From positions 2,852,001 through 2,916,000 of the forward strand of contig NZ_SODI01000001.1 in the NCBI RefSeq assembly GCF_004365915.1: a stretch of DNA of 64,000 bases, read 5' to 3'. This DNA is from Cryobacterium psychrophilum. Lineage in GTDB: Bacteria; Actinomycetota; Actinomycetes; Actinomycetales; Microbacteriaceae. Shown one piece after another: positions 24,456-64,000 of this stretch. The notes beneath the pieces were generated by a model. The model did no database searches. It worked only from the letters and a program-made list of their open reading frames with translations, and had not been told where the DNA came from. The position numbers and the translations under genes were made by a program. Numbering within the stretch: position 1 is the first letter of the stretch; each line of letters starts with the position of its first letter.

Positions 24456-24923
24456 ATGACTGAGGCTGTACGTATTATTACCGAGCAGGTGCGCCTGCGC
24501 GTGCGCCGTGACGGCGTTGACCTGGCGGCCGATAACGCGCTCGCCGAGCAGTACGTGCGCGACGAGGTGCGGCGCTACAGCGAACGCGCCCTCGGTGGTT
24601 CGCTTCCGCTGCTCGCCGACGAGCACCAGGCGACACGGGAGGTCGTCGCATCGCTCACGGGCTTCGGCGCGCTGCAGCCGTTTCTCGATGATCCCGACAT
24701 CGAGGAGGTCTGGATCAACGGGCCGGCGCGGGTGTTCGTGGCGCGAGACGGTGTGCCCGAGCTCACCACACTGCTTCTCACCGAGCGCGACGTTCGTGAC
24801 CTGGTCGAGCGGATGCTGCAAGCCTCCGGCAGGCGGGTCGACCTCTCCTCGCCTTTTGTCGACGCGTCGCTGCCCGATGGCTCACGCCTCCACGTGGTGA
24901 TTCCCGACGCTATACGTCCATAG
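24456..24923 (+). pseudogene. cpaF: cpaF/tadA-type secretion ATPase, 5' part, interrupted by prophage
   Basis: ATPase of Tad (Flp) pilus or type II/IV-like secretion systems. Residues about 1-150 are the N-terminal domain of the CpaF family: REVVASLTGFGALQPFLDD, EEVWINGPARVFVARDG, LPDGSRLHVVIPD. After Pro-Asp (24,908) the reading frame enters prophage attP sequence and ends at a TAG at 24,921. The missing part, with Walker A and B, lies beyond the right attachment site at 63,907. Start ATG 24456. Confidence 0.9.
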
Positions 24924-24934
24924 CTAAAGGGGCA
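24889..24934. other. attL (host-prophage left junction)
   Basis: Host half CTCCACGTGGTGATTCCC, core GAC at 24906-24908, then prophage half-site with the arm TAGCTAAAGGGGCA at 24921-24934. This arm is the inverted partner of TGCCCCTGTAGCTA at attR with 13 of 14 bases matching, as expected for a serine-integrase attP half. Confidence 0.9.
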
Positions 24935-26328
24935 CCCCAGCGAGGCACAATCGTCAAGGTTCGCGGTGCACTGAAATCGATCACGATGCTAGACACCAGG
25001 CTGCGGATCACTGCGCGCTTCGTCTGCAAAGGCACCGTAGGCCAGCCCTCCACAAGGCTCTGCGCGATCTTCGCCGGGTTTTCCGGCGCGAGTACGACCA
25101 TAGACTCTATGGCCCGCAGCGAGTCACTGAGCACTTCCCGCCGAGACTCCATATCCGCGACCGCCGCCCGGTACGCTCGCTCTGGAACGATCCCCTGCGC
25201 AAGGTGCTGCGTGAGCGTACTCATTTGAGCGTCTACCGCCAGGATCTCGCGGGCGAACCGCTGGGAGTCCACCTTCGCCGCGGCCGCAGCATAGTCCGGC
25301 GCTGGGTCGCTCATAGTGCCCACTGTCTCAAGCCACGCGAAAATATTGGGGTCAATGAACTTGATCGAGATATTCGCGGGCCCGTGGTTCGGGTTCAGGG
25401 CGGCGTCGTGGCACCGGTAACCGTAGAACGGCACCTTCGACCGCTTCCCCATGAGATTGGAAAACCCGTGCATCGTGCCGCCGCACGCGCACTTCATGAG
25501 CCCTGACAACAGGTAGCTAATTCTCGGAGCGCGCTCGTCGGCCCGCTCGACTCTCATCGCCTGGTACTGCTGGAATTTCTTCACCGTGATCAACCCCTCG
25601 TGGCCGCCGGGAAATAGCTCGCCACGATAGGTGATCTGGCCACTGTGAAAGGGCGAGTCGAGGATAGCGGTCACCGTGGAGTGTGACCATGACGGTTTTC
25701 CGTAGTAGGTGCGGTAACCGTTCTGCTCAAGCCATGCGGCCAGTTGCCGGGAGCCGAGGCCGCTCAGGTAGAGGTCGTACAGCTGCGGGATTGCGGGGGC
25801 CTGCTCCGGGTTCTGTGCGACACCTCTCTCGTGGCTCGACCATCCCCACGGCAGCCGTCCGGAGGGCAGCCCCCGGCTTACGCGGTTCACGTGCACTTCC
25901 CGCCATTGCTCACCGATGCGCTCCGACTCGAATGCCGACAGCTCGGTCATGACCCCACGAGCGAACCGGCCCGATGCGGATACATCATTGGGTTCCGTCG
26001 CCGACTCGATCTTTCCCCCGGCGACTTCGATGCGATCGACGGCAAGCGCCCAATCCTTGCGTGATCGAGAGAGGCGCGACCATCGCCAGAGCACGACGAC
26101 ATCGGCTTGTTTGCTCTCGATCATGTCCATGACTCGCACGACGGCAGGGCGCTTCCATGTGCGGCCGCTGATGCCTGGGTCGGCCTCGACGCCGACGACG
26201 ACATATCCGTGTTTCGCGCAGTGGTCCCGGCCCGCAGTCTCTTGCAGCTCAAGGCTGATGGATTCCTCGCGGTATGTGGACTGGCGCAGGTACAGGATCG
26301 CCCGCGGTTTGGCCTCCGCGCGGCTCAT
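24910..26328 (-). CDS. int: large serine recombinase (phage integrase)
   Basis: 472 aa. N-terminal resolvase domain with catalytic Ser17 in ILYLRQSTYREESISLELQ and the conserved WRWSRLSRSRKDW and GRFARGVMTELSAFESERI segments. A recombinase domain follows (about 165-260), then a zinc ribbon (LMKCACGGTM ... GYRCHD, about 285-320) and a coiled-coil region near 360-420. The stop codon lies at 24910-24912, so the gene's last codons are part of the attP half-site. This enzyme fits the attP dyad and 3-bp core seen at the prophage ends. Confidence 0.95.
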   Translation of the reverse strand: MSRAEAKPRAILYLRQSTYREESISLELQETAGRDHCAKHGYVVVGVEADPGISGRTWKRPAVVRVMDMIESKQADVVVLWRWSRLSRSRKDWALAVDRIEVAGGKIESATEPNDVSASGRFARGVMTELSAFESERIGEQWREVHVNRVSRGLPSGRLPWGWSSHERGVAQNPEQAPAIPQLYDLYLSGLGSRQLAAWLEQNGYRTYYGKPSWSHSTVTAILDSPFHSGQITYRGELFPGGHEGLITVKKFQQYQAMRVERADERAPRISYLLSGLMKCACGGTMHGFSNLMGKRSKVPFYGYRCHDAALNPNHGPANISIKFIDPNIFAWLETVGTMSDPAPDYAAAAAKVDSQRFAREILAVDAQMSTLTQHLAQGIVPERAYRAAVADMESRREVLSDSLRAIESMVVLAPENPAKIAQSLVEGWPTVPLQTKRAVIRSLVSSIVIDFSAPRTLTIVPRWGAPLAMDV

Positions 26329-26353
26329 GCCGCGCCGCTGTTCGAGAGAGGTG

Positions 26354-26608
26354 CTACTCCGTAGAGCGCACGGCTACGGCAAATACCTCCACGGGGTCGA
26401 TGCTCAGCACGCGGCACATGGTCACGAACAAGTCCACATCTATGGCCCGTTCCCCGCGCAGGTATAGCGAGACTGTCGACTGCGGCACCCCGCCGAGCAT
26501 TTCTCCGAATCGCTTTTGTGTCACGAGCAGTTCGAGAAATGCGTCGTTGAGGAGCGGTGCTAGTGCCAGGGACACGGGGCCGGGTTTGGGCGCGGTTCCT
26601 TTTGGCAC
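26354..26608 (-). CDS. XRE-family repressor-like protein, 84 aa
   Basis: Helix-turn-helix domain at about residues 18-70: LELLVTQKRFGEMLGGVPQSTVSLYLRGERAIDVDLFVTMC. GTG start at 26608 (VPKGTAPKPGP). It lies 25 bases upstream of the integrase gene on the same strand, so the two are likely co-transcribed. Actinophages with serine integrases often keep the immunity repressor beside the integrase; which of the two XRE proteins here is the immunity repressor cannot be decided. Confidence 0.75.
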   Translation of the reverse strand: MPKGTAPKPGPVSLALAPLLNDAFLELLVTQKRFGEMLGGVPQSTVSLYLRGERAIDVDLFVTMCRVLSIDPVEVFAVAVRSTE

Positions 26609-26623
26609 GGTTCGACGCTATCG

Positions 26624-26676
26624 GCTTGGACATGCCCAAGCGTTGAAGCTTAGACTCGACCATATACATGGTTCGA
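26624..26676. promoter_or_regulatory. operator-like inverted repeats upstream of the repressor gene
   Basis: GCTTGG/CCAAGC arms at 26624-26629 and 26636-26641, and a larger dyad at 26656-26676 with arms TCGACCAT and ATGGTTCGA (one bulge). They sit 15-70 bases upstream of the 84-aa regulator start, a usual place for autoregulation. Confidence 0.45.
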
Positions 26677-26748
26677 CTGAATGTTCGGTCCGTGTCGTGA
26701 GTGTCGCCGGTCGGATGTATGTTCGATACAACGTAAAGTGGGGAAGCA

Positions 26749-26961
26749 GTGAATTTTTCGGAAGTCGTTCGATCCAGGCTCTCAAGCGCGGCCAACGCCG
26801 CGGGCGTGCCTGACGAGTTGCCAGTAGATGACGCGGATCTGCTGGTCAGCTCCGTCATTCGGCAGGCGCGTCGGTGCGCCGTGGCAGTGTCAGGCATTCT
26901 CGATGAGCCTCTCGGCCTCGACGGCGATCTCCGAGGCGGTCGACCCGAGCACGCCAGCTAG
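26749..26961 (+). CDS. doubtful small ORF in the immunity region
   Basis: 70 codons from GTG at 26749 after GGGGA. The first about 55 residues (FSEVVRSRLSSAANAAGV, DDADLLVSSVIRQARR) have normal composition, but the 3' end overlaps the opposite-strand regulator at 26890. No family recognised. It may be real, or an antisense shadow. Confidence 0.3.
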   Translation: MNFSEVVRSRLSSAANAAGVPDELPVDDADLLVSSVIRQARRCAVAVSGILDEPLGLDGDLRGGRPEHAS

Positions 26962-27135
26962 AAGGCGAAGTTCGCCGACCGTCGCGGCCCGGTGGCCTTC
27001 GAGTATGCGAATGAGCGTCCGAGGGTGAATTCCGGTCGTGGCGGCCAGGTGGACGTTCGTGACGTTCTTTTGTCCCTGGTGGCCGCGTAGCACTGTGCTT
27101 ACGGCGAGGTCTAGGGGATCTATTCTTGCGGTCAT
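26890..27135 (-). CDS. XRE-family regulator, likely lysogeny repressor candidate
   Basis: 81 aa from ATG 27135: HLAATTGIHPRTLIRILEGHRAATVGELRLLAGVLG is a helix-turn-helix with its supporting helices. A longer frame to 27231 would run through the operator cluster and is less likely. Divergent from the small Cro-like gene at 27254; the 118 bases between carry repeated TGACA...TGTCA dyads, the layout of a phage genetic switch. Confidence 0.75.
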   Translation of the reverse strand: MTARIDPLDLAVSTVLRGHQGQKNVTNVHLAATTGIHPRTLIRILEGHRAATVGELRLLAGVLGSTASEIAVEAERLIENA

Positions 27136-27148
27136 AGTTGTCACTTTA

Positions 27149-27259
27149 TGACCATATCTGTCACTTGCCAAGTCCCCGGATAGGGGATTGCCTATCGAAA
27201 CCGATGTAGTGACAGATTTGTCATGTGCCATAAATGTCTGTACAGTGACATATATGTCA
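27149..27259. promoter_or_regulatory. phage switch operators: TGACA/TGTCA dyads
   Basis: Three related sites: TGACCATATCTGTCA (27149-27163), TGACAGATTTGTCA (27210-27223) and TGACATATATGTCA (27246-27259), the last a perfect 14-bp palindrome that overlaps the start codon of the 27254 gene. Half-site GTGACA/TGTCAC is constant. They lie between two divergent helix-turn-helix genes. Confidence 0.7.
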
Positions 27260-31182: not shown

Positions 31183-31188
31183 TTCACC

Positions 31189-33628: not shown

Positions 33629-33631
33629 GTC

Positions 33632-34028: not shown

Positions 34029-35117
34029 TTGTCCTGGTTCAAGATCGATGACGGGTTCTGGAGTCACCCCAAGATTTTAGGCCTGAGCCCGGAGGCGATC
34101 GCGCTGTGGGTTCGGGCAGGTAGCTGGTGCTCGCAGCAGCTCACAGACGGGCAGGTGCAGAAGCACGTACTGCCGTTGTTCATGTCGACAGAGGCCGTCG
34201 TGCAGGAGCTGGTGCGCGCCGAGCTGTGGGAGGTCAAACCGTTCGGGTTCGAGTTCCACGACTGGCTCGTGTATCAGCTCAGTCGTGAGTACGTGCTGGC
34301 CGAGCGGGCATCTAACGCCGCTCGGCAGGCCGTCTCACGTAACCCTGATCTGCGCGAAGCGGTCAGGGCACGTGACGGCGATAACTGCCGATACTGCGGG
34401 CTACGGGTCGGCTGGAGCGACCGCCGAGGCAACAAGGGCGGCACCTATGATCACGTCGACCCGACTGGGCCGAGCGTGGTCGACAACCTCGTGGTGTCGT
34501 GCCGGGGGTGCAATTCGAGCAAGGGGAGACGCACCCCGCAAGAGGCCGGATTGGTCTTGATTCAGATCGAAGCTAGATCCGATCTAGGTACGAACCTAGA
34601 TCCCACAAGCTCCGAACTTGGCTCAGAACCTGAGTCAGACCTAAAACACGGTGGGTCTTCGTACCTAGATCATCCAGCCAAGTCCGATCTAGATAAAAAC
34701 AAGACTGTTCGTGATCCCCGACCCGACCCGACCCGACCCGACCTACTTAAAGAGAAAGACAAAGAACACGTCGACGCCCTCTGCGCGCTGCTGAGCGAAC
34801 TCATCGTGGGCAACGGGTCGAAGCGGCCGACGATCGGCAAGGGGTGGCTGAACGCTGCTCGGCTGATGCTGACGGCTGATGCGCGCGACCCTGTCGCCGC
34901 TGAGCGACTCATGCGCTGGTGCCAAGCGGACTCGTTCTGGAAAGCCAATGTGATGTCGATGCCGACGTTCCGGAAGAACTACGACCGGCTGCGTCTCGCG
35001 GCCAATAAGTCGATCGCAGACAAGGCGCGTCCGGGCGGTCGGCCCACACCCGAACAACGAGCGATGCAGACGCTATCGCTTGCCACTCAGACCGACGAGA
35101 GGGAGATCGGCGCATGA
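34029..35117 (+). CDS. replisome-organizer-like protein with inserted HNH nuclease domain
   Basis: 362 aa. Residues 1-95 (WFKIDDGFWSHPKILGLSPEAIALWVRAG) match the winged-helix N-terminus of phage replication initiators. Residues 110-175 are a full HNH domain: C120-x2-C123, DH at 141-142, C158-x2-C161-N162. A linker (180-240) is coded by CTAGATC repeats and a CCCGA repeat. Residues 245-340 (WLNAARLMLTADARD, FWKANVMSMPTFRKNYDRL) look like the C-terminal helical domain of such proteins. Probably opens the phage origin and recruits the helicase loader. TTG start at 34029 is directly after the previous stop. Confidence 0.72.
   Translation: MSWFKIDDGFWSHPKILGLSPEAIALWVRAGSWCSQQLTDGQVQKHVLPLFMSTEAVVQELVRAELWEVKPFGFEFHDWLVYQLSREYVLAERASNAARQAVSRNPDLREAVRARDGDNCRYCGLRVGWSDRRGNKGGTYDHVDPTGPSVVDNLVVSCRGCNSSKGRRTPQEAGLVLIQIEARSDLGTNLDPTSSELGSEPESDLKHGGSSYLDHPAKSDLDKNKTVRDPRPDPTRPDLLKEKDKEHVDALCALLSELIVGNGSKRPTIGKGWLNAARLMLTADARDPVAAERLMRWCQADSFWKANVMSMPTFRKNYDRLRLAANKSIADKARPGGRPTPEQRAMQTLSLATQTDEREIGA
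34573..34692. repeat. cluster of five CTAGATC/GATCTAG repeats, candidate phage origin
   Basis: CTAGATC at 34573-34579, 34596-34602 and 34665-34671, GATCTAG at 34581-34587 and 34686-34692. The pair at 34581-34602 forms a perfect inverted repeat with 9-bp arms (GATCTAGGT/ACCTAGATC). They lie inside the replication gene, as lambda iterons lie inside gene O. Two longer words, CGTACCTAGATC and CGATCTAGATAAAA, recur at 41.3 kb. Confidence 0.7.
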
Positions 35118-43194: not shown

Positions 43195-43545
43195 GTGAGC
43201 ACTGTCGTTGAGGCCACAGAGATTTCGGTTCAGGCTGCGAGCCATTTGGACCGCACAGGCAAGGACGCTGGTGCTGTCGCGGCCATCTTGGCTTTGGCTC
43301 GGAAGATCGATGATTGGGATGCCGTGGTGGATCACATCATGGAGCAGATTGCGATGGACCCCGAATCGAAGATGCGCCCTCCAGGGGTTGACAATTCTTC
43401 TCTCCCGACTTACCTGAAGTTCTGTGAGTCGCTGGGCTTGACGCCTGGTAGCCGGGGTGAGCTTTCGACTACCGGTAAGCCGGCCGCGCCAACGAAGGTG
43501 AAGAATGATCTCGCAGACTTCAAGCAGCGGAACGGGGTCGGCTAG
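43195..43545 (+). CDS. terminase small subunit
   Basis: 116 aa, GTG start. Helical N-terminal half (VQAASHLDRTGKDAGAVAAILALARKIDDWDAVVDHIM), then SLPTYLKFCESLGLTPGSR, the pattern of actinophage small terminases, and a basic tail. Overlaps the large subunit gene by 41 bases. Confidence 0.78.
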   Translation: MSTVVEATEISVQAASHLDRTGKDAGAVAAILALARKIDDWDAVVDHIMEQIAMDPESKMRPPGVDNSSLPTYLKFCESLGLTPGSRGELSTTGKPAAPTKVKNDLADFKQRNGVG

Positions 43546-45180: not shown

Positions 45181-46443
45181 GTGCCAGAAGAACAGGGCTA
45201 TCAGGTCGGCATTCTGTCATCCTGGGCGAGCATGGCGGCTGAGTCTCACGAGACAAACCCGGATCTTGCCTGGCCGTTGTCGATCGAAGTGTTCGACAAG
45301 ATGCGCCGCGAGGATTCGCAAATCGGCAGCGTCCTCCGCGCTGTCACCCTGCCAATTCGTGGTGCCGAGTGGATGATCGACCCCGCCGGTGCTCGCGCTG
45401 AGGTGGTGGATCTGATCGCTACTGACTTGGGGTTACCGGTCAAGGGGCAGCCCCCGGCGAAAGCGGCGCGAACCCGCGGCCGGTTCCAGTGGGGCGAGCA
45501 TCTACGGATGGCACTCCTTGAGCTGGTCTACGGGCACTCGTACTTCGAGCAGGTGTACAAGCCTGAGGGTGACCGGTTGCGGTTGAAGAAGCTGTCTTGG
45601 CGTCCGCCGCGCAGCATCTCGAATGTGCAGGTCGCCCGTGATGGTGGCTTGATCGCGATCGAGCAGCATGGGGTGAAGGACCCGATTCCAGTGGACCGGC
45701 TCGTCGCGTATGTCAACGATCGCGAAGGTGGCAACTGGATCGGCCAGAGCCTCCTACGCACCGCGTATAAGAACTGGCTTCTGAAGGACCGGATGCTGCG
45801 CGCTCAGGCGTTGACCGTCGAGCGCAACGGCCTCGGCGTTCCCGTGTACACCGGAGCGCCCGTGCCGGACACAGCATCGACTGAAGAGCGAGCAAAGTGG
45901 ATGGACTCCGAGAAGGAGGCCGGCCTGAAACTTGCCACCGGGTTCCGCGCCGGCGCGGCTGCGGGCGCATCGATACCTCACGGGGCGACGCTTGAGCTGA
46001 AGGGTGTCACGGGCAAGCTGCCGGACACCGATGAGCCGATCCGCTACCACGACGAGCAGATTGCCCGCGCAGTGCTGGCTCACTTCCTGAACCTTGGAAC
46101 CGAGACGGGATCGTGGGCGCTCGGGTCGACGTTCGCGAACTTCTTCACGGACTCGCTGAATGCCGTAGCGGCACACATCGCCGATGTGACTCAGGCGCAC
46201 GTCGTTGAGGACCTCGTGGACTGGAACTGGGGCGAGTCTGAGCCTGCGCCGAGGATCACTTTCAAGCCCATCGGTGCCGGGCATCCACTGACTGCCGAGG
46301 CGCTGAAGCAGCTGATCGAAGCTGGCGTGATCAACCCGGACGAGACACTCGAATCGTTCATGCGGGCGGCATACAGCCTGCCCGTGAAAGACACCGGTTC
46401 GGAGCCCGATGCTCCCGTCAATGACCCCCAGGAGGACTCATGA
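45181..46443 (+). CDS. portal protein (DUF935 / Mu gp29-like)
   Basis: 420 aa, GTG start after AGAGAGGGTTTC. VFDKMRREDSQIGSVLRAVTLPIRGAEW, LLELVYGHSYFEQVYK and AYKNWLLKDRMLRAQALTVERNGLGVPVY are typical of the family. Forms the dodecameric ring at the capsid vertex. ATGA overlap with the protease gene. Confidence 0.85.
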   Translation: MPEEQGYQVGILSSWASMAAESHETNPDLAWPLSIEVFDKMRREDSQIGSVLRAVTLPIRGAEWMIDPAGARAEVVDLIATDLGLPVKGQPPAKAARTRGRFQWGEHLRMALLELVYGHSYFEQVYKPEGDRLRLKKLSWRPPRSISNVQVARDGGLIAIEQHGVKDPIPVDRLVAYVNDREGGNWIGQSLLRTAYKNWLLKDRMLRAQALTVERNGLGVPVYTGAPVPDTASTEERAKWMDSEKEAGLKLATGFRAGAAAGASIPHGATLELKGVTGKLPDTDEPIRYHDEQIARAVLAHFLNLGTETGSWALGSTFANFFTDSLNAVAAHIADVTQAHVVEDLVDWNWGESEPAPRITFKPIGAGHPLTAEALKQLIEAGVINPDETLESFMRAAYSLPVKDTGSEPDAPVNDPQEDS

Positions 46444-47615
46444 AACACCCGACCGCGGCAAGCGCCGCCGGTGCCAAGGATTGGTTTCGCATCCAGGCCG
46501 CCGCGAAAACGGATGATGCGCCGGCATCGGCCGATGTGTATATCTACGAGCACATCGGTCAGGACTGGTGGGGTGACGGGGTTGGCGCGAAGACATTCTC
46601 GGAGCAGCTCGACGCCCTCGACGTTGACACCATCCGCCTCTACCTGAACTCACCGGGTGGAGCGGCGTGGGAGGGCGTGGCGATCATGAACTCGCTACGT
46701 CGGCACAAGGCACGCATCGAGGTCATTGTCGACGGCATCGCAGCTTCTGCGGCGTCGGTCATCGCAATGGCGGGCGATCACATCACCATGAACCGCGGTT
46801 CCGAACTCATGATCCACGATGCGTGGGGAATGGCAGCGGGCAACGCGAAGGACATGGAGGACACTGCGCTGATCCTCGCGAAGCTGTCCGACTCGCTTGC
46901 CGACACGTATGCGGCTCGCGCCGGCAAGGACCGTGCGTACTGGCGCGATCTGATGCGAGCTGAGACCTGGTACACGGCTGAGGAAGCCGTGATCGCTGGT
47001 CTCGCAGATGAATGGGTTGACGCGCCCGCAGCGTCGGCCGCTTTTGACCTCTCGAAGCTCGGCTTCGCGTTTGCGGGCCGTGCGCACGCTCCCGCGCCGC
47101 GCATCGAGACCCCTGAACTCCCGAGCTCGACCGAGCCGGGTAACACCAACCGAAAGGAGAACGTCGTGGCTTACGACGATCTGAAGGCTGGCCTCCGTGA
47201 ACGGCTCGGCATGGCCGATGCTGCGGCCTCTGACGAGCAGCTTCTCGCTGCTGTGGACGAGACTCTCACCGCGAAGGCCGACATCACCACCCCAGAGGGA
47301 ACCGTCCTGATCGACTCCACCATGCTCGCCGACCTGCAGGCATCCGCCGCGCTTGGACGCCAGGCACGCGAGGAGCAGGACACCACCCGCCGCGAGTCGA
47401 TCGTGCACAACGCGGTCAGTGAAGGCCGGATCTCGCCGGCGTCGCGCGAAACGTGGCTCGCTCAGCTCGCGACGAACGAAGAGGGCACGAATGCTCTCAT
47501 TGGGTCGCTGGCGAAGAACACGGTCCCGGTCGCAGAGATCGGAACTGCCGAGGAACCGTCCGAAGCTGACAGCCTCTACGCCTCGGCGTGGGGCACCGAC
47601 ACGAAGGAGGCCTGA
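46440..47615 (+). CDS. ClpP-type prohead protease fused to scaffold domain
   Basis: 391 aa. Residues 30-200 are a ClpP/SppA-like serine protease: LYLNSPGG (68-74), catalytic Ser103 in GIAASAAS, His126 in ELMIHDAW. Residues 243-391 are a charged helical scaffold (LLAAVDETLTAK, ASAALGRQAREEQDTTRRESI). An internal GTG at 47166 with AAAGGAG upstream allows separate synthesis of the scaffold, like lambda C/Nu3. Confidence 0.88.
   Translation: MKHPTAASAAGAKDWFRIQAAAKTDDAPASADVYIYEHIGQDWWGDGVGAKTFSEQLDALDVDTIRLYLNSPGGAAWEGVAIMNSLRRHKARIEVIVDGIAASAASVIAMAGDHITMNRGSELMIHDAWGMAAGNAKDMEDTALILAKLSDSLADTYAARAGKDRAYWRDLMRAETWYTAEEAVIAGLADEWVDAPAASAAFDLSKLGFAFAGRAHAPAPRIETPELPSSTEPGNTNRKENVVAYDDLKAGLRERLGMADAAASDEQLLAAVDETLTAKADITTPEGTVLIDSTMLADLQASAALGRQAREEQDTTRRESIVHNAVSEGRISPASRETWLAQLATNEEGTNALIGSLAKNTVPVAEIGTAEEPSEADSLYASAWGTDTKEA
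47166..47615 (+). CDS. nested scaffold protein from an internal start
   Basis: In frame with the protease. GTG at codon 243 is preceded at eight bases by AAAGGAGA, a stronger site than most in this prophage, although it lies in the middle of a gene. Product about 149 aa: VAYDDLKAGLRERLGMADAA then helical. Excess scaffold over protease is what head assembly needs. Confidence 0.6.
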   Translation: MAYDDLKAGLRERLGMADAAASDEQLLAAVDETLTAKADITTPEGTVLIDSTMLADLQASAALGRQAREEQDTTRRESIVHNAVSEGRISPASRETWLAQLATNEEGTNALIGSLAKNTVPVAEIGTAEEPSEADSLYASAWGTDTKEA

Positions 47616-47997: not shown

Positions 47998-48915
47998 ATG
48001 GCGTCTTACACATACCCGGTGGCGCGGCCCGAGGGCTCGCTCACCGTCGCACAGATCCACCTTCTGCTGCAGAGCCCCCAGCTCATCGCGAAGCGCGTCG
48101 CGGATCTGACCAAGATGCGTTTCGTCGCGGATTACCTCCTCTCGGGGCGGTACACCGCGGCCGGTGGCGGACTCTTCTACGAGACCGGCGAGGAGATCTT
48201 CGCCGCGGACTCGCCTGAGGCTGTCGGGCCGGGAGGCGAGTACCCGAAGACGGTGTTGACGCAGGGCGAGATCGCCGCCGCGAAGACTGTCAAGTGGGGC
48301 ATCGAGACGGACATCACCGACGAGAAGATCTCCCAGCAGGGAATCGCGATCATCAATAAGGCGCTCATTCGCCTCAGCAACACCGTCGTCAAGCACGTTG
48401 ACGGCGTGGCAATGGCCGTCATCGCATCGAAGGTCACGAGCACGTTTGCGTCGCCGGCCCCGTGGACGACCGCTGGCGCGGCAATTGAGGCACTCACGAG
48501 CATCTCGCTCACGCGCTCTGATGCAGGTACCGGCCTTGATCTGTCCACGGTCGTGCTGAAGCCCACGCAGTACGCGAAGCTCATCCGCATCCTGGTCGAT
48601 GACAAGGCGCTCCCGCGCGAGCAGGGCAACATTGCCGTCACCGGCAACCTGCCCGTCGACGCGCTCGGCTTCACCTGGGTGACGAGCCCGTTCTACACCG
48701 GGACCGACCCGCTCCTGATCGACCGCGATCAGCTCGGCGGCGTCGCGGATGAGAAGCTCGGCTCCCCGGGTTACGCGTCCTTCGGCGGCTCTGGCGTCGA
48801 AACGAAGTCCGACCGTCACCGCGACGACAAGTACGAGCTGCGCGCCCGCCGCGTTGTTGTCCCTGTCGTCACGGAGCCGCTCGCCGGCGTCAAGATCACG
48901 AACACGGGCCTCTAA
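47998..48915 (+). CDS. major capsid protein (HK97-fold family)
   Basis: 305 aa. SPQLIAKRVADLTKMRFVADYLLSGRYTA, GPGGEYPKTVLTQGEI and TDEKISQQGIAIINKALIRLSNTVVKHVDG are the capsid's spine-helix and axial regions. It stands in the standard place after protease and decoration genes. One base overlap with the next gene. Confidence 0.85.
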   Translation: MASYTYPVARPEGSLTVAQIHLLLQSPQLIAKRVADLTKMRFVADYLLSGRYTAAGGGLFYETGEEIFAADSPEAVGPGGEYPKTVLTQGEIAAAKTVKWGIETDITDEKISQQGIAIINKALIRLSNTVVKHVDGVAMAVIASKVTSTFASPAPWTTAGAAIEALTSISLTRSDAGTGLDLSTVVLKPTQYAKLIRILVDDKALPREQGNIAVTGNLPVDALGFTWVTSPFYTGTDPLLIDRDQLGGVADEKLGSPGYASFGGSGVETKSDRHRDDKYELRARRVVVPVVTEPLAGVKITNTGL

Positions 48916-50677: not shown

Positions 50678-51493
50678 ATGATCGACGCCTTCGGAAACGA
50701 CGTTGCGGCCGTTGGAATCCCGGTCTCGGGAATCCTCGGATTCGCCCCCAAGGGGACCGCCTTCCCCACGGCCTCGGAGGGTGCCAACCCGGCATTCGTT
50801 CTTCCGGTGGCATTCAAGAAGGCGGGCCTCTTCGCCGAGGATGGGGGTTTCGAGTGGACGCTTGAGGCCGATGGGGACCCCATCAAGTTCTGGCAGGACG
50901 GCTACTCGATCCCGTCCGGCCTCGCGAATGCCGACGTGGTCGCGAAGCTCGCCCAGTACGACGCGATCGTTCGTGAGCTCGCCTACGGCAAGACCGCCGA
51001 CGCGAACGGATACATCACGATCGACGCTGGCGGTCATGCCACGGAGTACGTCATGTTCACCGAGGAGATCTTCAAGAACGGTGTCATTCGCCGCCGTATC
51101 GCGGAGGTCAGCGTGAAGAGCGCCAAGACCGACAAGTCCGAGCGCGGCAGCGTCAATGCTACCGAAATTACGTTCAAGGCGAAGCGTTCCGCGTCCCTGA
51201 ACAACGAGCACTTGGGCGAGTGGCTGATTCCCGCCCCAGGGACCGCGCTTCCGACGATCACCTCGGCGCTTCCGACGGGCATGGGCGCAGGTAGCACGGT
51301 GGAGCTGGTTGGTACCGGCTTCACTGGCGCTACCGCGGTCACGGTCGGTGGTGTGGCTGCTGCGATGTTCACTGTGAACTCGGCTACGTCAATCACGCTC
51401 GCCATGCCTACCGGCTCCGCGGGTTCTTCGCCGATCGTCGTCACGACACCGGTGGGCGCATCGGTCGCGAAGGCGTACACGCGCGTCGCCTAG
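50678..51493 (+). CDS. major tail tube protein with C-terminal IPT/Ig-like domain
   Basis: 271 aa. Residues 1-180 are the tube protein (IPVSGILGFAPKG, FEWTLEADGDPIKFWQDGY, RRRIAEVSVKSAKTDKS). Residues about 185-270 (PTITSALPTGMGAGSTVELVGTGF, AVTVGGVAAAMFTVNS, VVTTPVGASVAKAYT) are an IPT/TIG immunoglobulin-like fold, which would decorate the outside of the tail. GGAGCAATC is the ribosome site. Confidence 0.88.
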   Translation: MIDAFGNDVAAVGIPVSGILGFAPKGTAFPTASEGANPAFVLPVAFKKAGLFAEDGGFEWTLEADGDPIKFWQDGYSIPSGLANADVVAKLAQYDAIVRELAYGKTADANGYITIDAGGHATEYVMFTEEIFKNGVIRRRIAEVSVKSAKTDKSERGSVNATEITFKAKRSASLNNEHLGEWLIPAPGTALPTITSALPTGMGAGSTVELVGTGFTGATAVTVGGVAAAMFTVNSATSITLAMPTGSAGSSPIVVTTPVGASVAKAYTRVA

Positions 51494-52296: not shown

Positions 52297-54687
52297 ATGT
52301 CGTCCGTCGGATCTGCAGATGTGGCCATCTTCCCAACTTTTAAGGGATTCCGAGCCACAGTAGTGTCGGAGGTTGACTCTACCGGTCAGTCGGCGGGCGA
52401 CAAGTTCGCGTCCACATTCGGCAGGGCCGTGAAGGGCATCGGTGCTGGCATTGCTGTCGGCGTCGGTGCCGCTATCGGTGCGGTCGCCGCCGTTGCCGGG
52501 AAGGGGCTCAGCCGGGCGCTGAACCTTCAGGACGCGAAGGCGCAGCTCAAAGGACTCGGGCACGATGCCGAGGGCGTAGAGAAGATCATGGTCTCCGCGC
52601 TGGACTCCGTGACGGGGACCGCGTTTGGGCTGGATAAGGCTGCGACGATCGCTGCATCTGCGGTGGCTGCTGGCGTCAAGCCAGGTGAGGCGCTCACGCG
52701 CACGCTCAAGCTCACTGCGGATGCCGCGACTATCGGCAAGTCGTCGTTGTCCGAAATGGGTGACATGGTGAACAAGGTCGCCACGAACGGCAAGCTGAGT
52801 ACGGAAGTGCTGAACCAGTTCCAAGGCCGCGGCATCCCCCTGCTGCAGCTCGTCGCCGACCAGTACGGTATCACTGCCGAGGCTGCCTCTGAAATGGTCA
52901 CGAAGGGTGAGGTTGACTTCGCGGCCTTCCAGACGGCGCTTGAGAAGGGCGTCGGCGGCGCTGCGCTGTCCAGTGGCGCTACCGCGCGCGGAGCGTTCGC
53001 GAACATCGGGGCATCATTCGGTCGGCTCGGAGCAATGTTCACGGGCTCATCTGTCGACGCGGCACCGGCGCTGTTCGTCTCGATCGCCGGCGCAGTAGAC
53101 CGGCTTTCGGATTCGCTCGCCCCCCTAGCTGAGAAGTTCAACGGCAAGGTGACACCGGCGGTCGCCGCGCTGTCGGCATGGATCGACGGCATCGACTTCA
53201 ATGCGGTGGCAGCCAATGTGTCCGGCGCATTTTCGGCTATCTCGGGAGCATTCTCCAAAGTCGTGGGTGCTTTCCAGTCTGGGGATTTCTCCACCCTCGG
53301 CGAATCTTTCGGCAACATCAGCTCGATCCTGCAGCCGATGCTCCCGATCTTCATTGAGGTCGGTCGCGGAATCGGCGGGATTGCTGGCACGGTGGGTGAA
53401 CTCATCGCGGCGGGGATCCCGCTGCTCGTCCCGATTCTGCAATCCTTCACGGACATTCTGGGCTGGATCGGCGATAACTCCCAGATCGTAACCCCGATCA
53501 TCCTGGCGCTTGCTGCCGGATTTGCAATCTATCGTGCGGCGCAGGTCGCTTCCATCGGCGCGGCCATCATTTCGCTCCCGCTGACGGCACTGCAGGTAGT
53601 TGCTGACCTCGCCCGCACCCGGGCGCTCGTCGCCAATACGAACGCGATGAACGTACAGCGCGCCGCAGAGGGCGCGGGAATGCTGGTCCGCACGCCGGCC
53701 ACGGCGTCCATTCTCGCCAGCGCAGCTGCATCTATCGCGCACCGTGTCGCAACGGCCGCTATGGGTATTGCGCAGAAGGCGGCTGCGGCAGCTCAATGGT
53801 TACTCAACGCAGCGATGTCGGCGAACCCGATCGCGCTGGTCGTGATTGCGATTGCCGCCCTAGTCGCTGGTCTCATCTGGTTCTTCACCCAGACGGAGCT
53901 TGGGCAGGCGATCTGGTCCAATTTCACCAAGTTTCTGGGTGAGGCGTGGGCGAATATCTCGGCTACTGCGATGGCGATTTTTCAGGCGCTGGGAGCGTTT
54001 TTCTCCGGGTTCTGGGAAGGGGTAAAGGCTTTCTTTACTGGTGCTATCGCGGTGATTATCGCCCTTTTCCTCAACTGGACGCCTCTGGGCATCATCATCA
54101 AGAACTTTTCCGGGATCGTTGGATTCTTCACGGGCCTCTGGTCGAACATCACCAGTTCAGTGTCCTCAGGCGTGAGCAACGTGGTTCGGTTCTTCACGGA
54201 GATGCCGGGCCGGGTTATGAGTGCTCTCGGGAACCTGGGCAACCTGCTCAAGAATTCGGGGCAGGCGCTGATTCAGGGATTCCTCAACGGCATCTCAAGC
54301 ATGATCGGCAAAATCGGCGATGTCATCGGTGGAGTCATGGACTTTGTGGGCGGCTTCTTCCCCCACTCGCCGGCTAAGCGAGGACCCTTCTCGGGTTCTG
54401 GGTGGCGGGCTATCGGCGACTCCGGCAAGGCGGTGATTGATGAATTCCAGTCGGGCATTCCAGCCGATGCGCTGCGTTTGAATGGTTCATTCGCGGCGAA
54501 AATGACGAGCACGAGCCGTGGGTCTGTGGCCGGCGGCACTGCGTCATCCGCTGCGGCGATTTACGTGCAAAACCCGTTCACCGGAGAGTACCTGCTCGCG
54601 CAGGTCGGGTCGGTCGCTGACGGGCGCATTCAGGTGAAAGACAGCGCGGATGAGCGCGTGACTAGCGGACGCAGAAGGGCTAACTGA
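52297..54687 (+). CDS. tape measure protein
   Basis: 796 aa. DVAIFPTFKGFRATVVSEVDSTGQSAGDKFASTF at the N-terminus, Ala/Gly-rich helices and several hydrophobic segments (LVVIAIAALVAGLIWFF, AVIIALFLNWTPLGIII), and the end GGFFPHSPAKRGPFSGSGW, a very common tail-tape-measure C-terminus. It sets the tail length; 796 residues would give about 110-120 nm at 0.15 nm per residue. Siphovirus tail. Confidence 0.92.
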   Translation: MSSVGSADVAIFPTFKGFRATVVSEVDSTGQSAGDKFASTFGRAVKGIGAGIAVGVGAAIGAVAAVAGKGLSRALNLQDAKAQLKGLGHDAEGVEKIMVSALDSVTGTAFGLDKAATIAASAVAAGVKPGEALTRTLKLTADAATIGKSSLSEMGDMVNKVATNGKLSTEVLNQFQGRGIPLLQLVADQYGITAEAASEMVTKGEVDFAAFQTALEKGVGGAALSSGATARGAFANIGASFGRLGAMFTGSSVDAAPALFVSIAGAVDRLSDSLAPLAEKFNGKVTPAVAALSAWIDGIDFNAVAANVSGAFSAISGAFSKVVGAFQSGDFSTLGESFGNISSILQPMLPIFIEVGRGIGGIAGTVGELIAAGIPLLVPILQSFTDILGWIGDNSQIVTPIILALAAGFAIYRAAQVASIGAAIISLPLTALQVVADLARTRALVANTNAMNVQRAAEGAGMLVRTPATASILASAAASIAHRVATAAMGIAQKAAAAAQWLLNAAMSANPIALVVIAIAALVAGLIWFFTQTELGQAIWSNFTKFLGEAWANISATAMAIFQALGAFFSGFWEGVKAFFTGAIAVIIALFLNWTPLGIIIKNFSGIVGFFTGLWSNITSSVSSGVSNVVRFFTEMPGRVMSALGNLGNLLKNSGQALIQGFLNGISSMIGKIGDVIGGVMDFVGGFFPHSPAKRGPFSGSGWRAIGDSGKAVIDEFQSGIPADALRLNGSFAAKMTSTSRGSVAGGTASSAAAIYVQNPFTGEYLLAQVGSVADGRIQVKDSADERVTSGRRRAN

Positions 54688-57500: not shown

Positions 57501-57539
57501 TTCACGGTCCCTGACGGGGCCTTTTCCTTTGGAGGCACC

Positions 57540-58100
57540 ATGGCACGCTCAGGCAATAACGCACGGATTCCGGCGATCGGCAACTACTCCCAGGCGTCCG
57601 CGCCAAAGTTCGGGGCAGACCTGACGGAACTCGCTGATGACATCGCGGACCTGATCGGTGAGTCGTTCGATACGGTCGGCGCGCTCCCGTCGTCTGGCAA
57701 TTGGCCGGGCCGCACTGCCCGCGTTGCCAGCGATGGCTTGCAGCACGTCCACAACGGCACCGCATGGACGGATGGGACCGGGGACACTGGATGGATTACG
57801 CCTACCGCTCTCGGCAGTGGATGGTCCAACGAATCTGGCAATGGATTCCAGTATCGACGCAGGAATGGTGAAGTCCGGTTCCGGGGGCGGGGATCTTCGA
57901 CGGGCGCGAGCTCGGCGCTATTCACTCTTCCTGCCGGCTTCCTTCCGGACGTTTTGCCCGGCGCGAACTTCGCGTTTTTAACGGATGCGCAAAGTGGTGC
58001 GGTGCGCATGAATGTCCTTTCGACGGGGGCAATGACATCTCTCACGACTGGCACGATCACGAACATTTCGCTGGGTAACATCCGATTCGACGCGGCCTAA
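57540..58100 (+). CDS. minor tail / fibre-tip protein, 186 aa
   Basis: FGADLTELADDIADLIGESFDTVGALPSSGNWPGRTARVASDGLQHVHNGTAW is a common trimeric-fibre start, and the C-terminal part NGFQYRRRNGEVRFRGRGSS, SALFTLPAGFLPDV looks like a fibre-tip beta domain. Shares one base with the endolysin start. Confidence 0.68.
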   Translation: MARSGNNARIPAIGNYSQASAPKFGADLTELADDIADLIGESFDTVGALPSSGNWPGRTARVASDGLQHVHNGTAWTDGTGDTGWITPTALGSGWSNESGNGFQYRRRNGEVRFRGRGSSTGASSALFTLPAGFLPDVLPGANFAFLTDAQSGAVRMNVLSTGAMTSLTTGTITNISLGNIRFDAA

Positions 58101-58978
58101 TGGGCATTATCGACAACTTCACGCACCCCGTGATCCTGGTTGATGACCGCGACCCGGAAACATCGTGGGCGAACCACCTCAAGCGCGGCAGTTCGGGCGG
58201 CGTCGATCTCGCGTACCCATACGGCTCCGAGGTTCGCGCACCCGCAGACGGAGTATTTCAGTATTTCGACGGCAACGGGCGGGTCGGCAAGGGCTCGGGC
58301 GGCAACATCGGCCGGCTTCGTCTGCCCAACCAGGACTACATCGAGTTCATGCACTTGTCGTCCGGTTCCCCAGACAGAGACGTGAAGACCGGTGATTTGC
58401 TCGGGCGTTCCGGTGCGAGCGGGTTTGGCAACCTATGGCACTACGGCCCGCACCTACACGTACACATCTACATCGGCGGCGTGCGCCGCAACCTGTTCCA
58501 CTACTTCACCGCGACCAGCTCAGCGGCTGCGTCCTCATCATCCGTCACGATTACCCCCGCAGCGGCCGAGCCCGCAGGGAGGAAGCGAAACATGTACATC
58601 ACTAAGGACACCAACGGCACCATCCTCCTCGCCACCGATCAGGGATTCTGGGGGCTGCCGACCACGGCCTACGTCGCCTTGTTCGAGCGCATGATCGAGG
58701 CCGACCGCACCGGTGTCGGTGAGGTGTTCAACCCTCAGCAGATCGGCATGATGGACACAATGCTGCGCAACATCGTTCGGTCCAACGTCGCTCAACCCGT
58801 CGTCCAGACCGTGGACGCGGGGGCTGTCGCCAAGGCCGTCATCGACGCTCTCGCGCCACAGATCGGAAACGTCGTCGTAGACCAGGTCGCAATTGCCAAG
58901 GCGGTCGACGCGGTACTCGCTGACAACTTCGCGGCGATCCCTGGGGCCGTCGTCGGTGGCCTCAAGGCTGCGCTGTAG
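58100..58978 (+). CDS. endolysin with M23 metallopeptidase domain
   Basis: 292 aa. Residues about 20-135 are an M23 (LytM-like) peptidase: His and Asp of the zinc site in NHLKRGSSGGVDLAYP, YGSEVRAPADGVFQYF, and HLHVHIY. It cuts peptide cross-bridges in peptidoglycan. A Ser/Thr/Ala linker and a C-terminal region of about 120 residues (WGLPTTAYVALFERMIEADR, AVAKAVIDALAPQIGNVVVDQV) not recognised follow. No signal peptide, so release needs a holin. Confidence 0.85.
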   Translation: MGIIDNFTHPVILVDDRDPETSWANHLKRGSSGGVDLAYPYGSEVRAPADGVFQYFDGNGRVGKGSGGNIGRLRLPNQDYIEFMHLSSGSPDRDVKTGDLLGRSGASGFGNLWHYGPHLHVHIYIGGVRRNLFHYFTATSSAAASSSSVTITPAAAEPAGRKRNMYITKDTNGTILLATDQGFWGLPTTAYVALFERMIEADRTGVGEVFNPQQIGMMDTMLRNIVRSNVAQPVVQTVDAGAVAKAVIDALAPQIGNVVVDQVAIAKAVDAVLADNFAAIPGAVVGGLKAAL

Positions 58979-58981
58979 CTC

Positions 58982-59218: not shown

Positions 59219-59227
59219 GGAGAAATC

Positions 59228-59551: not shown

Positions 59552-59600
59552 TACCCTCGCCCCGATTTCTGCCATCACGCACCAACAGTAAGGATTCTTC

Positions 59601-61289: not shown

Positions 61290-61329
61290 TAGTTTGAAAG
61301 ATGCCCACCCATTGTCGTGCTAGCGTTCG

Positions 61330-62709
61330 ATGGTGGGTGGGTACATAAGCGGGCCAGTGAAGAGTCGACCGACAGTAATCGTAGGAACTTCTGCGGTCGC
61401 GCTGATACTTGCCGCGAGCAGGTGGGGAACCAACATTGGCGCATCACCGATCTACATCACTGACATCCTCATCGGACTGGGGATTGCCGGATGGTTCATC
61501 GCTACGCGAATGCAGGGCAAGCGCGCCCTAGACGGCTGGGTTACACGCAATCGGCCAAGCGCTCTCTTTGCTCTGTTCTTCGTCTACGTTTCGGCGCGCT
61601 TCCTGCTCTCGCTCGGGGGTGGCCCGATGTTGGATTGGGTCAGGGATGGCGTTCCTTTCCTTTACGGCGTGCTGGCGTTCGTCAGTGCATCCTCCTTGGC
61701 CCGATCCACCCACGAAGCTCGCGCGCGAACGATGCGCATATTCTGGGCCGCGCTCATTTTCCACACTCTTTGGGCTTGCGTGATCATCTTCGGAGGCATC
61801 CAGGAAACCCCATCAGTTCCGTTTTCAACCGCGCCTCTGTTCCAGCTGCGTCCCGACATTGATGCGGCGCTCCTCGGCGTAACAGCTGGAATGTGTCTCT
61901 TGCGTATCCTTCGCGGACACAAGAAGTTCTGGCCGTTCATTGGCATGGTCGCGTCTGCCGCTGCTGTATTGACCCTTGAGACACGGGCGGGTTTGATCGC
62001 TCTTGCGCTCTCCGTGGCGCTTGCGATCCTGTTGCAATATGCGGCCACACCGCGACAGAACGTTCGCCGGACCGTTATGGTGATGGTCATTCCCGCGCTT
62101 GCCTTGATCGCTCTTATGATTCTGCCAACGACCCCACCGGGTGAACGCCTTGTGGCGACCTTCAAATCAAGCCAGGGGTCGACATCTGCGGCAGAAAGCG
62201 CACAGGGCACCCAACGCGCCCGTGAGCTCGTCTGGTCAGGCGTTATTGACTGGACGAACGAAGAGACATCCCGCACAATTTTCGGGGGTGGTTTCGGCAA
62301 TAACTTCCTCGATGAGTCTGGCACGCTTGCGTATCTTGAAGGCAGTACCTACTCAGGCGTAAGAAGCCCACACAACTGGTTTGTCGGAAACTATGCACGC
62401 CTAGGCGTTATTGGTTTCGCACTGTCCATCGCCGTGTGCTTGCAGCTCTTAGGGACCATTGTCCGTTACCGGCGACGAATCGGCGAAGACCCGCTCCTTA
62501 GCCTCTCGGCGCTGCTGATCGTGGCCATCCTGCCAGTAGCGTCCTTTGGGGTAGTTCTTGAGGCACCCCACGGTGCCGTTCCGTTCTGGTGGGCCGCGGG
62601 GATCATCTTTGCTCTTCGAGAATCCAAGACCAAAGCGGCGGGACTGTCACAGGTGGATTCCAGCCCGGCCCCGGCCGCTGCGGTGGGGCGAGGCATACCT
62701 GCGTTATAA
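61330..62709 (+). CDS. O-antigen ligase / polymerase-like membrane protein (Wzy_C family)
   Basis: 459 aa with about eleven hydrophobic segments. The two family marks are present: an Arg in TLETRAGLIALALS (the SRG/TRAG loop) and the His of SPHNWFVGNYARLGVIGFALS at about residue 348, with a large extracellular loop between (EETSRTIFGGGFGNNF). Such proteins join lipid-linked glycans or polymerise them. On a prophage it would alter the host surface. Stands alone 40 bases after the fibre and before a strong terminator. Lower GC than its neighbours in places. Confidence 0.8.
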   Translation: MVGGYISGPVKSRPTVIVGTSAVALILAASRWGTNIGASPIYITDILIGLGIAGWFIATRMQGKRALDGWVTRNRPSALFALFFVYVSARFLLSLGGGPMLDWVRDGVPFLYGVLAFVSASSLARSTHEARARTMRIFWAALIFHTLWACVIIFGGIQETPSVPFSTAPLFQLRPDIDAALLGVTAGMCLLRILRGHKKFWPFIGMVASAAAVLTLETRAGLIALALSVALAILLQYAATPRQNVRRTVMVMVIPALALIALMILPTTPPGERLVATFKSSQGSTSAAESAQGTQRARELVWSGVIDWTNEETSRTIFGGGFGNNFLDESGTLAYLEGSTYSGVRSPHNWFVGNYARLGVIGFALSIAVCLQLLGTIVRYRRRIGEDPLLSLSALLIVAILPVASFGVVLEAPHGAVPFWWAAGIIFALRESKTKAAGLSQVDSSPAPAAAVGRGIPAL

Positions 62710-62744
62710 TTCACCGAGCTAGACCGGCACTAACTTCATCAGAT

Positions 62745-62781
62745 AGCCCCTCGGCCTCTTCGGAGGTCGGGGGGCTTTTTT
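62745..62781 (+). terminator. terminator after the O-antigen-ligase-like gene
   Basis: AGCCCCTCGGCCTC (62745-62758) pairs with GAGGTCGGGGGGCT (62763-62776) with small mismatches, loop TTCG, then six T. Strong rho-independent terminator that closes the late transcript. Confidence 0.88.
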
Positions 62782-62895
62782 GTTGTAGAACGGGGGGGTA
62801 CAGACGTAGGCTAGAAGTCTTCGCAAAAGCGAAAGGCCCCGCCCCGTGTTTCAGCACGAGACGAGGCAGCCAGACAACCATCCACCATCAAGCAC

Positions 62896-63822
62896 ATGGA
62901 GTCCGACATGACAAACTCTAATACCCTCGCGCCCACGTTCAGCCCTCGGATGACCGAGGAAGAGATCGCAGCCGCGGCGTTCCTCGCCCGGTATAAAGGC
63001 GATACCCGCACGATGTACATCAGCGATCTGCGCATTTACTTCGAGTGGTGCTACTCGAACGGCATCAAGCCTCTCGAAGCCGAGCGGGTGCACCTCGAAT
63101 TCTTCGCCCGCTACTTGGAAGAGGTGCGCGGCAATGGCCCGGCCGCCACCTGCCGGCGACTCGGTACCCTGAAGGGCTTCTACCGGATTGCCGAGGCCGA
63201 CGACCGCATCAAGCGCAGCCCGATGACGTTTGTCCGGATGCCCAAAGTCATCTGGGACGAGAACGCCGCGATGGGCCTCGACCGGGTGCAGCTCGGCACC
63301 CTGATTCAGGCCGCCCGTGCCAAGTCACCGACCGACGCCGCCCTGGTCACGCTCATGGGTATGCTCGGCCTACGCGTCTCCGAGGCCACCAGCGTGCAGA
63401 TTGAGGACTTCGCGGAGACGAAGAGCGGCCACCGTGTGCTGCGCGTTCTCGGCAAGGGAGGCAAGCCCGCCACGATCCCACTGCCGGTCCCGGTGATCCG
63501 CATGCTCGATGCGTGCGCCGGCGACCGCAAGTCCGGGCAGCTGCTCTACACCGACCTCGGCACGGTCATGGATCGACGCTCGGCCTACCGGCGCATCAAG
63601 TCCCTCGCCAAGCGTGCAGGACTTCCCGCCGGCCTCCACCCGCACACCCTCCGCCACAGCGCGATCACTGCGGCGCTCGACTCCGGGGCAACGCTGCGAG
63701 ACGCTCAGATCTTCGCCCGGCACTCCGACCCCCGCATGACGAACCGCTACGACCGGAACCGCGGCAACCTCGACCGGCATGCAGCGCACGGGCTCGCCGC
63801 CTACCTCGCCGGCGCAGCGTAG
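62896..63822 (+). CDS. tyrosine recombinase (XerC/D-like)
   Basis: 308 aa. N-terminal core-binding domain (DTRTMYISDLRIYFEWC). Catalytic residues visible: Arg160 (GLRVSEAT), Lys187 or Lys190 (GKGGKPATIP), His250-x2-Arg253 (HPHTLRHS), His276 (ARHSDPR) and Tyr285 (MTNRYDR). All are intact. Starts at ATG 62896 or 62908. The attachment sites fit the serine integrase, so this enzyme has another job or is left from another element. It has its own terminator. Confidence 0.9.
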   Translation: MESDMTNSNTLAPTFSPRMTEEEIAAAAFLARYKGDTRTMYISDLRIYFEWCYSNGIKPLEAERVHLEFFARYLEEVRGNGPAATCRRLGTLKGFYRIAEADDRIKRSPMTFVRMPKVIWDENAAMGLDRVQLGTLIQAARAKSPTDAALVTLMGMLGLRVSEATSVQIEDFAETKSGHRVLRVLGKGGKPATIPLPVPVIRMLDACAGDRKSGQLLYTDLGTVMDRRSAYRRIKSLAKRAGLPAGLHPHTLRHSAITAALDSGATLRDAQIFARHSDPRMTNRYDRNRGNLDRHAAHGLAAYLAGAA

Positions 63823-63831
63823 GCAGACAGA

Positions 63832-63875
63832 AGCCCCGCCGCTCGATCCTCACGGACTGGGTGGCGGGGCTTTTC
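63832..63875 (+). terminator. terminator after the tyrosine recombinase gene
   Basis: AGCCCCGCC (63832-63840) pairs with GGCGGGGCT (63863-63871), 9 bp perfect with a 22-base loop, followed by TTTTCC. It shields the host gene downstream from phage transcription. Confidence 0.8.
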
Positions 63876-63879
63876 CGAT

Positions 63880-63925
63880 TGCCCCTGTAGCTAGTGATAC
63901 ATCCCGGACATCACCCGCAAATTTT
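63880..63925. other. attR (prophage-host right junction)
   Basis: Prophage arm TGCCCCTGTAGCTA at 63880-63893, then GTGATACATCCCG, the core GAC at 63907-63909 and host sequence ATCACCCGCAAATTTT. Combined with attL this gives an attP dyad of about 55 bp centred on the core, the form and size usual for large serine integrases. Confidence 0.9.
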
Positions 63926-64000
63926 GGGCCGTGAACATTCGCAAGTTCACGCGCCGCATCCACGACCTGAACCAGCTCGTGGCGCTCGGTTCCCTCACGA
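63907..64000 (+). pseudogene. cpaF: cpaF/tadA-type secretion ATPase, 3' part (start of)
   Basis: Reads D-ITRKFWAVNIRKFTRRI, HDLNQLVALGSLT in the frame of the 5' part at 24456, and continues beyond the window. VNIRKF and LVALGSL are conserved in the CpaF N-terminal domain. The ATPase core must lie further downstream. Without its start, this half is probably not expressed in the lysogen. Confidence 0.88.

Follow-up and report, generated by a model that had tools for sequence, protein, structure and literature searches.

Insertions in tad and comEC genes of Cryobacterium suggest that mobile elements switch off DNA uptake to avoid removal

What, if anything, does a prophage gain by residing inside a pilus gene? 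The question is raised by a 64,000-bp stretch of the genome of the glacier bacterium Cryobacterium psychrophilum (here called the window; contig NZ_SODI01000001.1, G000 C1:2852001-2916000 in the genome numbering used below), in which a 39,001-bp prophage splits tadA, the gene of a CpaF-type pilus ATPase, at a 3-bp GAC (24906-24908 / 63907-63909). Comparison with related genomes suggests that mobile elements switch off DNA uptake to avoid removal. We consider it probable that the prophage is a temperate phage whose large serine integrase uses a conserved tadA site (codons VVIPD-ITR) as attB, and that it is part of a wider, convergent habit of disarming DNA uptake. With less assurance, though we lean towards it, we propose that the tad-1 pilus serves Microbacteriaceae as a machine for DNA uptake; that prophages, actinomycete integrative and conjugative elements (AICEs), small serine-integrase elements and tyrosine-recombinase elements independently disarm tadA, tadC, flp or ComEC; and that 23 of the 57 Cryobacterium species studied (about 40%) are thereby non-transformable at present.

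The mechanism that we envisage is as follows. Different mobile elements in Cryobacterium and other Microbacteriaceae insert in presumed DNA-uptake genes, namely tad-1-like tadA, tadC and flp, comEC, and comM, and insertion would put an end to Tad-dependent natural transformation for as long as the element stays in place. DNA of uninfected kin, taken up by transformation, could swap an occupied site for an empty one, deleting the element, and elements that silence uptake would persist longer. The host would not be permanently harmed, because lytic excision would restore the split gene. The G000 lysogen is thus expected to be non-transformable.

The reading frame of tadA opens with an ATG at 24456 and remains open for 151 codons up to VVIPD, codon 151 being the GAC at attL; after the second GAC the frame resumes as ITRKFWAVNIRKF, and the two halves join in frame. 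The N-terminal fragment is 92% identical to residues 1-155, and the C-terminal fragment 95% identical to residues 150-411, of the unbroken TadA of the nearest relative, G194, where VVIPDITRKF runs uninterrupted across the insertion site. Past the window, the C-terminal part lies in a 263-codon open frame that matches PF00437 (T2SSE ATPase), followed by tadB, an extra open reading frame (ORF) of 261 amino acids, tadC, a 58-residue flp-like gene, two tadE-like genes and a tadG-like gene. TadB and TadC were identified by T2SSF matches, while flp, tadE and tadG were named from gene order and appearance. The T2SSE core and the adjoining tadB, tadC, flp and tadE/G genes mark the split gene as encoding a Tad/CpaF ATPase. 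The preliminary description of this DNA had held that the prophage cuts a cpaF/tadA gene exactly and that its excision would restore the frame; both statements are confirmed, and with the tad operon found beyond position 64,000 the worry that no tad genes lie downstream falls away. The aligned relatives leave no space for an ORF such as the extra one between tadB and tadC of G000 (L008 2338-3123); G173 has about 5 kb between these two genes (L164). A 518-residue ORF that by eye resembles an insertion sequence transposase lies 1.7 kb beyond the G000 tad genes (L008 7652-9208).

Large serine integrases recognize a short core with inverted-repeat arms in attP. In the window, the attP half-sites, one to the left of attR and the other to the right of attL, together make up an inverted repeat, TGCCCCTGTAGCTA ... 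TAGCTAAAGGGGCA, whose centre by eye is the GA of GAC, and the short GAC core with its paired arms is of the kind used by these enzymes. The protein adjoining the att site combines Resolvase, Recombinase and zinc-ribbon domains in one chain, as befits a prophage with a large serine integrase, its zinc ribbon (Zn_ribbon_recom) scoring 24.6 bits, slightly below the cut-off of 25.3. Another prophage, in G078, has an integrase 73% identical to that of G000 and occupies the same tadA site, with CGGACA common to both flanks; when the two integrases are set on the same side, the arms have equal lengths from CCTGTAGCTA to the centre (by eye). The G078 element is inverted in tadA relative to the G000 prophage (L077, L079), and in an alignment by eye its central dinucleotide is TC, as against GA in G000. 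The central dinucleotide sets orientation in large serine integrases; TC together with the opposite orientation thus provides an independent check of the crossover point. The G000/G078 pair is also a natural test of how such integrases set orientation. A chance repeat at the junction is ruled out by the paired arms, by empty sites in 50/57 genomes and by the related G078 prophage. A 7-bp core TCCCGAC was likewise discarded; attR reads CCCGGAC.

The nearest named tadA loci all belong to Cryobacterium. A search of 57 Cryobacterium genomes found the C-terminal part of tadA in every one. The gene is unbroken in 50/57, with 415 or more codons in one open frame (27 of the 50 also confirmed by full-length alignment, 23 by frame alone), and these copies supply the empty attB in relatives whose existence the preliminary description had put in question. 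It is split in 7/57, at residues ~152-158 (G194 numbering) in G000 and G078, ~139-142 in G203, G152 and G180, and ~296-308 in G178 and G189. Both halves lie on one contig in six of the seven; those of G180 are spread over two contigs, with tyrosine recombinases beside the gene. The host-derived tadA fragments have no internal stops. A 15.4-kb viral contig in IMG/VR also ends in tadA, at residues 294-411.

The damage extends along the operon. The distance from the tadA C-terminal part to tadE2 is usually ~3.2-3.5 kb; it is 13 to 76 kb in nine genomes, and the two genes are on separate contigs in G160, G180 and G191. Insertions were found in tadC in eight genomes (G173, G176, G194, G198, G186, G160, G172, G150) and in flp in two (G169, G196), the tadC stub of G150 and the flp N-terminal part of G196 being located by eye. 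A serine integrase lies within ~60 bases of the junction in nine of these ten cases and 5.5 kb away in G160. The tad operon is thus split in 17/57 genomes (tadA 7, tadC 8, flp 2), with a serine integrase in 16 and tyrosine recombinases in G180. Two candidates were left out of the count: G191, in which tad and comEC are on separate contigs and no element was seen, and a contig gap at flp of G180.

Were DNA uptake what links these targets, comEC would be expected among them, and this prediction was tested. The gene (PF03772) was found in 57/57 genomes and is split in six (G190, G164, G153, G201, G168, G177), at one of two places, between SSL and SHL or between VSG and AN, one per integrase lineage. 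A serine integrase abuts the C-terminal part in 4/6 and lies 2.5 kb off in G201 and ~4.8 kb off in G177; the N-terminal part is on the same contig in G164 (8.6 kb away) and G153 (9.4 kb away), whereas in the remaining four the two parts lie on separate contigs. The six do not overlap with the 17 genomes in which the tad operon is split, which brings the genomes with split tad or comEC to 23/57 (17 + 6). Short comEC frames in G157 (570 codons) and G176 (528 codons) were put down to another cause and left uncounted, and in G000 itself both ComEA and ComEC are intact. Of the 23 tad and comEC cases compared, 22 have host halves that join up in frame, the in-frame join of G180 being doubtful; the rejoined flp of G196 is three codons shorter than the reference (flank by eye). 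The weaker of the counted cases are G180 (two contigs, tyrosine recombinases), G160 (two contigs, with 5.5 kb between integrase and tadC end), G177 and G201 (integrase distant from the comEC end), and G196 (short flp).

Whereas comEC was chosen for testing, a further competence gene, comM, surfaced among the neighbours of integrases. Its C-terminal end is truncated beside an integrase in G178 and G158 (L182, L188), which may stop its function. The two integrases are closely related, and in G158 a single frame of 1035 codons spans both comM and the integrase.

Integrase-site pairs recur in other genera. In two Agreia species flp is split at the site used in G169, next to an integrase 61.6% identical, and in a Glaciihabitans metagenome-assembled genome the pieces of a split tadC are on two contigs, and the integrase found there shares 65.6% identity with the one in G173. 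Of 90 genomes sampled from the family, G000 and G078 included, 64 gave a tadA match at E<=1e-55, a missing match being weak evidence here as 20 candidates were scored per genome; tadA is split by 57 kb with a tyrosine recombinase in G037 and by 12 kb with a serine recombinase in G073. Left uncounted were G071, where the break is an apparent frameshift, and G025 and G009, where the gene is truncated near other genes and the missing part was not found (a tape-measure gene lies 1.3 kb off in G009).

To how many integrase lineages do these insertions belong? A PF07508 search of the 57 genomes gave 50 matches, of which six were dropped (one with a stop and 166 residues, five frames of 229-281 residues). 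The other 44 large serine recombinases comprise 14 in tad, 6 in comEC, 2 at comM and 22 elsewhere, that is, with no tad-1, comEC or comM piece in the retrieved stretch. Tyrosine recombinases escape this census, as do the G203 and G152 integrases; the latter two were added to the 44 in a tree of 46 sequences. The tree requires seven label changes for tad, at least five of them forced by well-supported branches, and two for comEC, which shows that several integrase lineages reached tad and comEC genes. Such recurrent, convergent targeting by different integrase lineages is one of the features expected of transformation-blocking elements. Going by share of the genome, a crude measure, chance would place 0.08 of the 44 in tad and comEC, whereas 20 are there. 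All P-values given below are crude as well, with uniform nulls, clusters taken as independent, and the hypothesis formed after tad had been seen.

The link between these genes and transformation comes from Micrococcus luteus. There, transformation is abolished when tad-1, tad-2 or comEC genes are deleted (deletion of tadB only reduces it), and loss of the Flp complex is always accompanied by loss of transformability (PMC4322843). The likeness of the Cryobacterium tad-1, tad-2 and comEC genes to those of M. luteus was judged by gene order and architecture, and on these grounds the tad-1- and comEC-type genes split here appear to be of the types that M. luteus needs (PMC4322843). G000 carries two further Tad-type loci, each with its own TadA: a tad-2-like locus with TadA, one long TadB/C-like protein and an flp with GAATAEY (named by order and appearance), and a third locus with a TadZ-like ATPase (by eye), TadA, TadB and TadC. 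The preliminary description had asked whether an intact cpaF elsewhere could cover the function. Loci with a TadA of their own do exist; in M. luteus, however, both clusters are necessary, so that a paralogue need not rescue function (PMC4322843). The further statement of the preliminary description that the lysogen lacks the appendage is likely to hold for this one Tad system, the two other Tad-type loci being present. The third locus, with its TadZ-like ATPase, sets G000 apart from Flp-dependent transformation in M. luteus, and mobile elements are not discussed in the available text of that account (PMC4322843). A second TadA-like match at E<=1e-40 was found in 20/57 genomes. At E<=1e-75 the match to the tad-2-like TadA is partial in G157, G170 and G198, for which a contig end, an incomplete genome or a real break are all possible, and is missing in G162.

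The conflict as such is of a known kind; what is new here is the tad genes as targets, and the phylum. A conflict between mobile elements and transformation was described in 2016 for Firmicutes and Proteobacteria (Croucher et al., PMC4774983), and elements in comYC, comFA, comK, comM or comEC have been argued to escape deletion by transformation (PMC4774983; PMC12637031). The elements of Croucher et al. resemble ours in lying in transformation genes, in having convergent integrases and in hitting the same gene across several genera; the uptake pilus in their case is the ComG/ComY pseudopilus or is made of Pil proteins, whereas here it is the Tad (Flp) pilus of Actinomycetota (PMC4774983). The words Tad and Actinobacteria are absent from the main text of that paper (PMC4774983). 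No report of such insertions, whether in tad genes, in Cryobacterium or in Microbacteriaceae, came up in a search of the open-access literature, which lacks most subscription papers and preprints.

Several observations weigh against the idea that these elements are selected for blocking uptake. No transformation phenotype was found for any Cryobacterium. The tad-2-like TadA gave matches at E<=1e-75 in 56/57 genomes, none with a clear insertion, and the hypothesis leaves this untargeted locus unexplained. Half of the serine integrases (22/44) lie outside tad, comEC and comM; in six of the tad and comEC cases (four comEC, G180 and G160) the halves are on different contigs; and no genome carries insertions in both tad and comEC, but this separation falls short of significance (P = 0.106). 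Tad pili also serve adhesion, so uptake may be lost as a by-product, and conserved, dispensable genes may simply make good attB sites.

The last point leads to the strongest of the rival explanations, that tadA, tadC, flp and comEC are neutral safe harbours, conserved enough to serve as attB and yet dispensable, to which integrases drift with no gain from blocking uptake. Serine integrases often use conserved coding sites, and tadA, tadE2 and comEC are present in 57/57 genomes, yet split copies survive. This explanation has to account for the finding that 8 of 18 integrase clusters (at 40% identity; a hand count that omits G203 and G152) include integrases that insert in tad or comEC. With 200 equally suitable genes, four would rarely draw so many, P being about 1e-9 in a crude estimate. 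Among the neighbours of the 22 other integrases (20 ORFs scanned, most disrupted genes being unresolved there), the only repeat besides comM is one gene, for a calcineurin-like phosphoesterase, beside the integrases of G154 and G179. Selection and safe harbour are inseparable by sequence; we regard the neutral explanation as possible but unlikely.

Pili are common phage receptors, and a prophage that removes the Tad pilus might exclude competitors, as the preliminary description had proposed; pilus genes are indeed split in 17/57 genomes. However, comEC and comM are targets too, and ComEC is an inner-membrane channel. Exclusion at the receptor leaves the comEC splits (6/57) and the comM truncations (two genomes) unexplained, and AICE-like elements (G203, G152), in which no structural gene was found in ten ORFs scanned, insert likewise. 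Like Tad, comEC and comM have to do with DNA uptake and transformation, but neither belongs to the pilus. With comEC outside the pilus, both receptor exclusion and a regulated switch become less likely; we judge the former improbable.

The least probable of the rivals, also put forward in the preliminary description, is active lysogeny, in which a host signal would trigger excision, turn the pilus on and be followed by reinsertion. It fits the clean excision that would restore the tadA frame and the tadA fragments without stops, as if restored periodically (which recent insertion fits equally well), but we think it very unlikely: the G000 assembly contains no second copy of the right junction, hence no excised form there, no regulatory link was seen, and sites, orientation and element type vary between species, unlike in a co-evolved switch. 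The Listeria prophage in comK, an example of active lysogeny, is alike in its reversible insertion in a gene related to DNA uptake and differs in its regulated excision, for which nothing in the sequences examined here speaks.

Returning to the proposed silencing of uptake, the elements involved are of diverse types. We take those of G000 and G078 (54 kb) to be prophages, that of G178 to be a 15-kb element with portal and capsid genes, and that of G189 to be a kinase-bearing element; those of G203 (FtsK-like and Rep_1 proteins) and G152 (Rep_1, restriction-type and SIR2-type genes) are presumably AICE-like, no phage structural gene having been found among ten ORFs scanned. The label of G078 rests on size and integrase, and the tadC, flp and comEC elements were annotated at the integrase level. 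The restriction/methylase-type and SIR2-domain proteins of the G152 element (L072 1165-6439) are possibly involved in phage defence.

The G000 prophage looks complete, because integrase, repressor, replication, terminase, portal, protease, capsid, tail, tape-measure, M23 and tyrosine recombinase genes are all present (Table 1). It has a serine and a tyrosine integrase, one on each side of attP. In this it resembles Arthrobacter phage Maja (Majavirus, MK279899), in which serine (43%) and tyrosine (55%) integrases stand side by side around the presumed attP; in Maja, unlike the G000 prophage, the inverted repeat between the integrase genes is of other sequence, portal and MuF are fused, and the tape measure is much longer. 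In IMG/VR neither the G000 integrase nor comEC found a relative, and among phage records the integrase has remote matches only, none above 60% identity. The Wzy_C protein within the prophage is possibly a surface-changing cargo gene.

Table 1. Features of the split tadA gene and its prophage, in coordinates of the window.
Feature	Position	Strand	Basis
tadA N-terminal fragment, 151 codons, ends at GAC core	24456..24908	+	identity to G194 TadA
attL core GAC; presumed crossover dinucleotide GA	24906..24908		register with attR; arms of attP inverted repeat
Large serine integrase, 472 aa; 3' end overlaps attP arm	24910..26328	-	Resolvase, Recombinase, Zn_ribbon_recom; phrog_95 integrase
HTH repressor	26890..27231	-	HTH_3; phrog_4583 transcriptional repressor
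Phage replication-initiation / HNH protein	34029..35117	+	
Terminase large subunit	43505..45166	+	phrog_9
Portal protein	45181..46443	+	Portal_Mu; phrog_113
Head maturation protease	46440..47615	+	CLP_protease; phrog_2976
Major capsid protein	47998..48915	+	Phage_capsid_4; phrog_1650
Major tail protein	50678..51493	+	phrog_10909
Tape measure protein	52297..54687	+	TMP_3; several tape-measure phrogs, yet single best phrog labelled endolysin
M23 peptidase (lysin or tail-associated)	58100..58978	+	
Protein with O-antigen-ligase (Wzy_C) domain	61330..62709	+	
Tyrosine recombinase at opposite prophage end	62896..63822	+	Phage_integrase; phrog_1
attR core GAC	63907..63909		register with attL
tadA C-terminal fragment; runs past window to C1:2916689	63907..64000	+	identity to G194 TadA

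If the proposed silencing of DNA uptake is true, the conflict between mobile elements and transformation takes in Actinomycetota and the Tad pilus as well, and Tad-dependent transformation would be widespread in these bacteria and costly to their mobile elements. It makes a testable claim on which of several Tad loci takes up DNA, for which some twenty natural insertion mutants are available in one genus. The integration sites would then amount to a natural screen that picks out transformation genes in a phylum where the process has received little study.

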